Part shown: piece after piece, positions 71-1,255 of the stretch
Layout of the letters: the number at the start of each line of letters is the position of its first letter
Numbering within the stretch: position 1 is the first letter of the stretch
Source: Candidatus Omnitrophota bacterium
GTDB taxonomy: Bacteria; Omnitrophota; Gorgyraeia; Gygaellales; Profunditerraquicolaceae
Direction of reading: 5' to 3'
DNA: 34,847 nucleotides
Assembly: GCA_026387405.1 (NCBI GenBank)
Contig: JAPLLV010000068.1
Location: 1-34,847 of the forward strand
Notes under the pieces: generated by a model
Database searches by the model: none
Told to the model about the DNA's origin: nothing
What the model saw: only the letters and a program-made list of their open reading frames with translations
Translations under genes and position numbers: made by a program

Positions 71-748
71 TCAAAAAACTATTTCACCCTCCGCAGCCGT
101 TGCAGGGACATTCGACAACGCAGTTGTAACGTTTTTCTCAACTACATCTAGATACGCTTTTATGGCATTAACCACTGATGCGTTTCGGCTCTTCAACATT
201 GCCACGCAATTATCCGCTGCATGCTGGCCCTCAGGATAAACCATGACATATTTCCCCTTACTGTCGCGTTTCAAAGGATAGGGTGACTCTGCCATCTTCT
301 GGTAACGGAATAACAGCCCAAAATTAGGATTGTCATACGCAAGGCTTGGACCATACGCTTGATCCTCTAAGGTGATCAGCGCGCCCCCAGGATCAGCCAT
401 GCACGTATCAATTGCTGACTTGAATGCCGCATACTCAGGACTCCCCTGCCTACCAACCAGCAATTGGTAATCTCCTATACCTCCATAGCTTCCCCTGCCA
501 AAAAGGCTGGCAACATACTCCTTGCCCCCATCCTTGGCAGCAAGCAAAGCAGTGCGCGTTTCAGATAAATACCCCTTAACGGTGGCAAGATATTTCGCCA
601 TGCGTAACGCATCATTATTTATCACGGACGAACTATCCTTAGGGTCACTTTCTGCATACGTAAGCTGACACGCAATGCCTACAAAAAAAACAAGCGCTGC
701 CAAGAAAAATATGGATATTGCATTGCAAGTAATATGATATCTTTCCAT
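71..748 (-). CDS. Exported protein of unknown function (N-terminal hydrophobic signal/anchor segment)
   Basis: 225-aa ORF; N-terminus MERYHITCNAISIFFLAALVFFVGIACQLTYAES looks like a signal peptide or anchor; no recognised domain. Confidence 0.7.
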   Translation of the reverse strand: MERYHITCNAISIFFLAALVFFVGIACQLTYAESDPKDSSSVINNDALRMAKYLATVKGYLSETRTALLAAKDGGKEYVASLFGRGSYGGIGDYQLLVGRQGSPEYAAFKSAIDTCMADPGGALITLEDQAYGPSLAYDNPNFGLLFRYQKMAESPYPLKRDSKGKYVMVYPEGQHAADNCVAMLKSRNASVVNAIKAYLDVVEKNVTTALSNVPATAAEGEIVF

Positions 749-1013: not shown

Positions 1014-1047
1014 CAAAAAAGCCCTAAAGGTAATCTTTAGGGCTTTT
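1014..1047 (-). terminator. Rho-independent terminator-like hairpin
   Basis: Minus strand AAAAGCCCTAAAGATTACCTTTAGGGCTTTTTTGC: strong stem followed by T6. Confidence 0.65.
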
Positions 1048-1081
1048 AAAAAAATAGCCGTGAGGGGATATTCACTCACGG
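1048..1081 (-). terminator. Rho-independent terminator-like hairpin (candidate expression platform of the riboswitch)
   Basis: Minus strand CCGTGAG..CTCACGG followed by CTATTTTTTT. Confidence 0.65.
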
Positions 1082-1095
1082 TTCTTTGTTTCTCC

Positions 1096-1184
1096 CCTTT
1101 GGCAGCTGGCTATCCTCTATATATTACCTATAGAGGACCCTTCAGCTTTGTGCCCCAAGATTACTCTTGGTTTACCTTTATCAG
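1096..1184 (-). ncRNA. Probable cyclic di-GMP-I (GEMM-I) riboswitch aptamer
   Basis: Minus strand AAAGGTAAACC-[CCAAGA GTAA TCTTGG]-GGCACAAAGC-TGAAGGG-[TCCTCTATA GGTAATA TATAGAGGA]-TAGCCAGCTGCC. It has the AAACC motif, a GNRA-capped hairpin, a CAAAGC motif, a second helix and an AGCCAG-TGCC 3' closing segment, as in GEMM-I. Confidence 0.72.
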
Positions 1185-1227
1185 TAGGTCAAAAGAACAA
1201 ATTGTCACTTTTGTAACTTACATAAAA

Positions 1228-1255
1228 AGTATAGCATATTCCCGCGGGTTGTCAA
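1228..1255 (-). promoter_or_regulatory. Sigma70-type promoter upstream of the riboswitch
   Basis: Minus strand TTGACA (1255-1250), 16-bp spacer, TGCTATACT (extended -10; TATACT 1233-1228). Confidence 0.65.

Follow-up and report, generated by a model that had tools for sequence, protein, structure and literature searches.

Judged by its sequence, an RNA encoded on the reverse strand of an Omnitrophota contig is a genuine c-di-GMP-I aptamer, and it is followed by two tandem terminators. In the reading that we favor with modest confidence, this RNA is a c-di-GMP class I riboswitch that would act as a transcriptional OFF switch, its free core strand capturing the second terminator. The DNA analyzed (hereafter the window, 34,847 nt) is one entire contig (C78) of a 1.92-Mb genome in 84 contigs. 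A preliminary description of this DNA had proposed the aptamer, the promoter and the tandem terminators, all of which held together with their coordinates, and had named the gene at 71–748 as the controlled gene, for which the case proved weak; it had missed that terminator 2 is complementary to the aptamer core and that such complements recur across the lineage. The features are as follows.

1228–1255, minus strand: promoter TTGACA-16-TATACT with extended TG, 11/12 matches
1097–1185, minus strand: c-di-GMP-I aptamer, cmscan 59.7 bits for RF03167 and 62.6 bits for RF01051
1172–1180, minus strand: aptamer 5′ core strand UAAAGGUAA, the proposed antiterminator strand, a 9/9 inverted repeat with terminator 2
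1048–1081, minus strand: terminator 1, CCGUGAG hairpin plus U-tract, −11.1 kcal/mol, z −5.0
1014–1047, minus strand: terminator 2, 13-bp hairpin plus U-tract, −17.5 kcal/mol, z −5.5
1025–1033, minus strand: anti-core UUACCUUUA, loop and 3′ arm of terminator 2, perfect complement of UAAAGGUAA
888–998, no strand assigned: double-hairpin repeat of ~110 bp between the terminators and the gene
71–748, minus strand: 225-aa ORF, the N-terminal portion of an exported protein of ~1000 aa and the closest gene downstream; control uncertain

RNA elements of the window and the downstream gene

Both cmscan matches of the aptamer, the check that had been suggested for it, were significant and lay above the gathering scores of their models (35 for RF01051, c-di-GMP-I; 59 for RF03167, c-di-GMP-I-GGC, with an E value of 8e-12 over the window). 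The expected P2 helix, CCAAGA-GUAA-UCUUGG, was seen at 1170–1155 (−) with GUAA as its GNRA cap, and the basal P2 pairs G21-C46 and U22-A45 are present. In Vc2 numbering, which we assigned by hand from the covariance-model alignment, G20 falls at 1176, U22 at 1174, A45 at 1151, A47 at 1149, and C92 at 1102. Covariance matches to PyrR and trpB in the window were far below cut-off, and these identities were dropped as chance scores on the terminator hairpins.

The sigma70 promoter with its extended TG was found at 1255–1228 (−). Counted alone, such promoters are no more frequent than chance predicts (1 found vs 2.9 expected); comparable boxes lie 5′ of all seven host aptamers, six of them with the TG. 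Both terminator hairpins, located exactly where they had been reported, fold far better than shuffled sequence. The stem of terminator 1 spans 1081–1058 and its U-tract runs to 1048, the fold energy of terminator 2 was computed for 1047–1017 (−), and neither terminator overlaps the aptamer. An ORF at 807–1079 was rejected as spurious, its GTG start lying inside terminator 1 without a ribosome-binding site.

For the gene at 71–748, described earlier as an exported protein under c-di-nucleotide control, the ORF was present, with a good ribosome-binding site and a start that resembles a signal peptide; in-frame stops, the intervening repeat and a family found in 1 of 384 genomes weakened the proposed control. 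The host has two paralogs, one of 1040 aa (contig C22) and one split into two ORFs (C57). Homology to them runs past the stop of ORF 71–748 to the contig end, with three in-frame stops in ~25 codons; the ORF is a truncated copy, probably with a truncated product, rather than an intact gene. No aptamer was found near the paralogs, and the family was found in none of the 383 other genomes of the class searched. Searches with the 225-aa protein (Pfam, NCBIfam and PDB) and with the 1040-aa paralog (Pfam) returned nothing significant. The repeat at 888–998 has three other near-identical genomic copies and one diverged copy; it resembles REP or MITE elements.

The locus may also be read as a decaying orphan, in which the RNA elements are genuine but control no working gene, the repeat having been inserted and the downstream gene broken. 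The near-identical repeat copies elsewhere, the stops in a frame homologous to the paralogs, a family not found in the 383 other genomes and the paralogs without a nearby aptamer all speak for such decay. Against it, none of the RNA elements (aptamer, promoter, both terminators) is damaged, the ORF retains a good ribosome-binding site and a good signal sequence, and further genes could follow beyond the contig end. We regard decay as a serious possibility that falls somewhat short of an even chance. As regards mechanism, it is compatible with the OFF-switch explanation. Riboswitch control of ORF 71–748 is possible, and the link between the two is not conserved. Since the first gene downstream encodes an exported protein in truncated form, the present output of the switch may be weak or lost.

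Proposed pairing between the aptamer core and terminator 2

The anti-core of terminator 2 is complementary to the ligand-contacting 5′ strand of the aptamer, on which G20 and G21 lie. In the OFF switch that we propose, the free core strand would, when c-di-GMP is absent, pair with the emerging loop of terminator 2 and then extend this pairing into the 3′ arm ahead of hairpin closure, letting polymerase read on. An anti-core that starts in the loop would emerge ahead of the 3′ arm. With c-di-GMP bound, the core would be buried and the terminators would form; a transient antiterminator that is prevented by the ligand implies OFF logic. The core pairing probability of the window anti-core was 0.84 in a transcript cut at its end, a cut that favors core pairing by construction and speaks to feasibility only, and 0 at full length, so that switching would have to be kinetic. 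Terminator 1 is weaker and lacks a core complement, and so would need another antiterminator; it may be opposed by AGGGGA (1098–1093) pairing with UCCCCU (1068–1063).

We compared related loci that have a separate downstream terminator. In 33 of 90, the terminator held a perfect complement, 7 nt or longer, of the core of its own locus, by a terminator finder and a 7-nt rule made for this analysis, the rule having been set on these first 90 loci. Background terminators, which came from the same genomes and were sampled in 20 control stretches of 20 kb each, matched the cores in a mean of 2.3 cases (maximum 7 in 200 draws), and swapping cores among the riboswitch loci gave a mean of 22 and a maximum of 32 in 500 swaps. 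In a second set of 25 loci, fetched later and judged by an unchanged rule, the complement occurred in 9, where background draws predicted 0.52 and never exceeded 5 in 1000. Loci from other phyla with the same core sequence had it in only 1 of 27 cases (Fisher p 0.0005). These counts come from related loci that are not independent of one another, and the complement pattern tracks gene families.

The complement maps to positions 16–23, most often covering G20, and hardly occurs at the aptamer 3′ end; the anti-core usually starts in the terminator loop (22/33 loci). At one locus, L304, the complement is 11 nt long. Core pairing probability exceeded 0.5 in the cut transcript, with the same built-in advantage as above, at 29 of the 33 loci, and terminator probability exceeded 0.5 at full length at 27. 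Single-position covariation in two-by-two tables was weak (p 0.04 to 0.5). In the first set, the complement was found at 24 of 32 tandem terminators vs 9 of 58 single ones; the second set did not show this link (1/4 tandem vs 8/21 single) and is too small to confirm it.

A more ordinary platform could also underlie this arrangement, with the linker 3′ of the aptamer serving as antiterminator of terminator 1 and terminator 2 as an unregulated back-up; the core complement would then be incidental or a by-product of stereotyped terminators. It would use the AGGGGA–UCCCCU pairing, helped by the P3 3′ strand AUAGCC pairing with GGCUAU. The sharing of CCCTAAAG arms by many terminators of the clade speaks for this platform, as do two characterized riboswitches. 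In Cd1 of Clostridioides difficile, a transient antiterminator that later refolds is made from the aptamer 3′ strand (PMC9262584), and in Bc1 of Bacillus thuringiensis one aptamer precedes two terminators, the second of which is ligand-independent and active at any c-di-GMP level (PMC11218506). Against the ordinary platform, matches to the core are rare among background terminators from these genomes; the riboswitch match peaks at G20, exceeds the core swaps, was seen again in the second set and hardly occurs in other phyla. We consider this account unlikely, though it retains appreciable weight.

The proposed OFF switch shares with Cd1 the aptamer class and a terminator apart from the aptamer, and would share OFF logic in which a transient antiterminator and the aptamer compete; by sequence, the window has terminators separate from the aptamer and a core complement. 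It differs in that Cd1 uses the aptamer 3′ strand (A) and one terminator, whereas in the window it is the second of two terminators that the ligand-contacting 5′ strand matches. Like Bc1, the window combines one c-di-GMP-I aptamer with a weak–strong pair of intrinsic terminators, an arrangement that the Bc1 authors call rare (PMC11218506). In Bc1, c-di-GMP unfolds T1 while T2 stays active, and a core complement is not described in the sections consulted (PMC11218506). The pilM 3′,3′-cGAMP riboswitch of Geobacter metallireducens (PMC9262584) has a homologous aptamer fold. Its terminators are of the ON type and incorporate the 3′ strand of the aptamer (PMC9262584), an arrangement also seen at several other loci of Omnitrophota, and it differs from the window RNA, which has G20 and separate terminators, in its cGAMP ligand and ON logic. 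In the literature that we searched on the c-di-GMP-I class, a 5′-core antiterminator design was not found.

Ligand of the aptamer

The preliminary description had left the ligand preference open on account of the unusual GGCACAAAGC and had suggested aligning the ligand-contact positions. The alignment gave G20, A47, and C92, which are the canonical contact bases for c-di-GMP and which agree across all seven host aptamers wherever the positions are present. The deviation in GGCACAAAGC amounts to a change of G45 to A, matched by a change of C22 to U on the opposite side of P2; read from the sequence, the oddity is a compensated base pair (U22-A45), which recurs in 11 to 13 of 116 clade aptamers. 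Given these canonical contact bases, and a substitution at 45 that position 22 compensates, c-di-GMP is the predicted ligand, and the question appears largely answered.

That the aptamer senses another dinucleotide, such as 3′,3′-cGAMP, or an unknown ligand of a GGC variant is very improbable: Rfam clan competition does name the window RNA c-di-GMP-I-GGC, and A20 occurs in eight of ~150 clade aptamers, but both G20 and A47 are present in the window RNA, G occupies the A47 position in the RF03167 consensus, RF01051 gives the higher bit score, and the cGAMP change in a crystallized GEMM-I RNA is G20A (PMC6274999). The A20 hallmark of 3′,3′-cGAMP (GEMM-Ib) aptamers is replaced by G at 1176. The GGC label is the outcome of competition between overlapping models of one clan. 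RF03167 shares an AAAGG-type 5′ core with the window, which scores just above its gathering score, and differs in its consensus G at the A47 position, where the window (1149) and the other host aptamers have A. We take this G to be what the name GGC denotes, and a GGC-class reading of the ligand was rejected on that difference.

Two kinds of variant were seen elsewhere in the clade. The eight A20 aptamers (L098, L122, L142, L293, L302, L303, L310, and L316) carry the change known from 3′,3′-cGAMP riboswitches, and one of them, L142, sits upstream of a type IV pilin gene. In three others (L064, L103, and L120) the basal P2 pair is flipped to C21-G46 from G21-C46, with G20 and A47 kept.

The host genome and aptamers across the lineage

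Host DnaB shares 59–79% identity with its counterparts in eight named Omnitrophota genomes and, over full length, no more than 52% with those of the other phyla tested, which places the host in Omnitrophota. The host genome encodes six GGDEF domains, which count in favor of the proposed switch; the GG(D/E)EF motif is intact in four of them and reads GGDDF in one other. No EAL domain was detected in this genome. A genome search placed six host aptamers above the RF01051 cut-off, and a local scan did so for a seventh (L061, 2401–2467), which is truncated where contig C44 ends; its P2 hairpin is the same as that of the window. Two genes behind another host aptamer (L002) lies a protein that reads as PilZ-like by its sequence rather than by a family match.

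Within the class, RF01051 matches were present in all 58 genomes searched, the host included. Downstream of the aptamers we found a ~90-aa family with the motif VVTFLNREEVDFLDKLGKDALF at 17 loci, Peptidase-C39-like proteins at 13, an exported IPAIPG family and an exported ~165-aa family at 7 each, GH1 glycosidases and type IV pilins at 6 each, IS200-like transposases at 5, and TPS-secreted proteins at 3. The ~90-aa family (VVTFLNREEVDFLDKLGKDALFSTG; L005, L028, L034, L067, L105, and 12 other loci) gave no Pfam match for the one member scanned (L034). The transposase genes are related to one another (Y1_Tnp; aptamers L099, L104, L109, L129, and L143) and were an unexpected target. At twelve clade loci the terminators are of the ON type, with the aptamer 3′ strand forming part of them. 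We found no paper on c-di-GMP or riboswitches in Omnitrophota in the literature searched.

We give roughly even chances to the wider proposition that a large share of Omnitrophota c-di-GMP-I riboswitches use the ligand-contacting 5′ strand as antiterminator, nucleating on the loop of a terminator that is often one of two in tandem. If this is true, the ligand and the terminator loop would compete directly for the same core bases. The aptamers and their recurring targets, namely pilins, secreted proteins, glycosidases, IS200-like transposases and undescribed small proteins, suggest that c-di-GMP-sensing RNAs serve a large regulon in this phylum, whose bacteria are uncultured.
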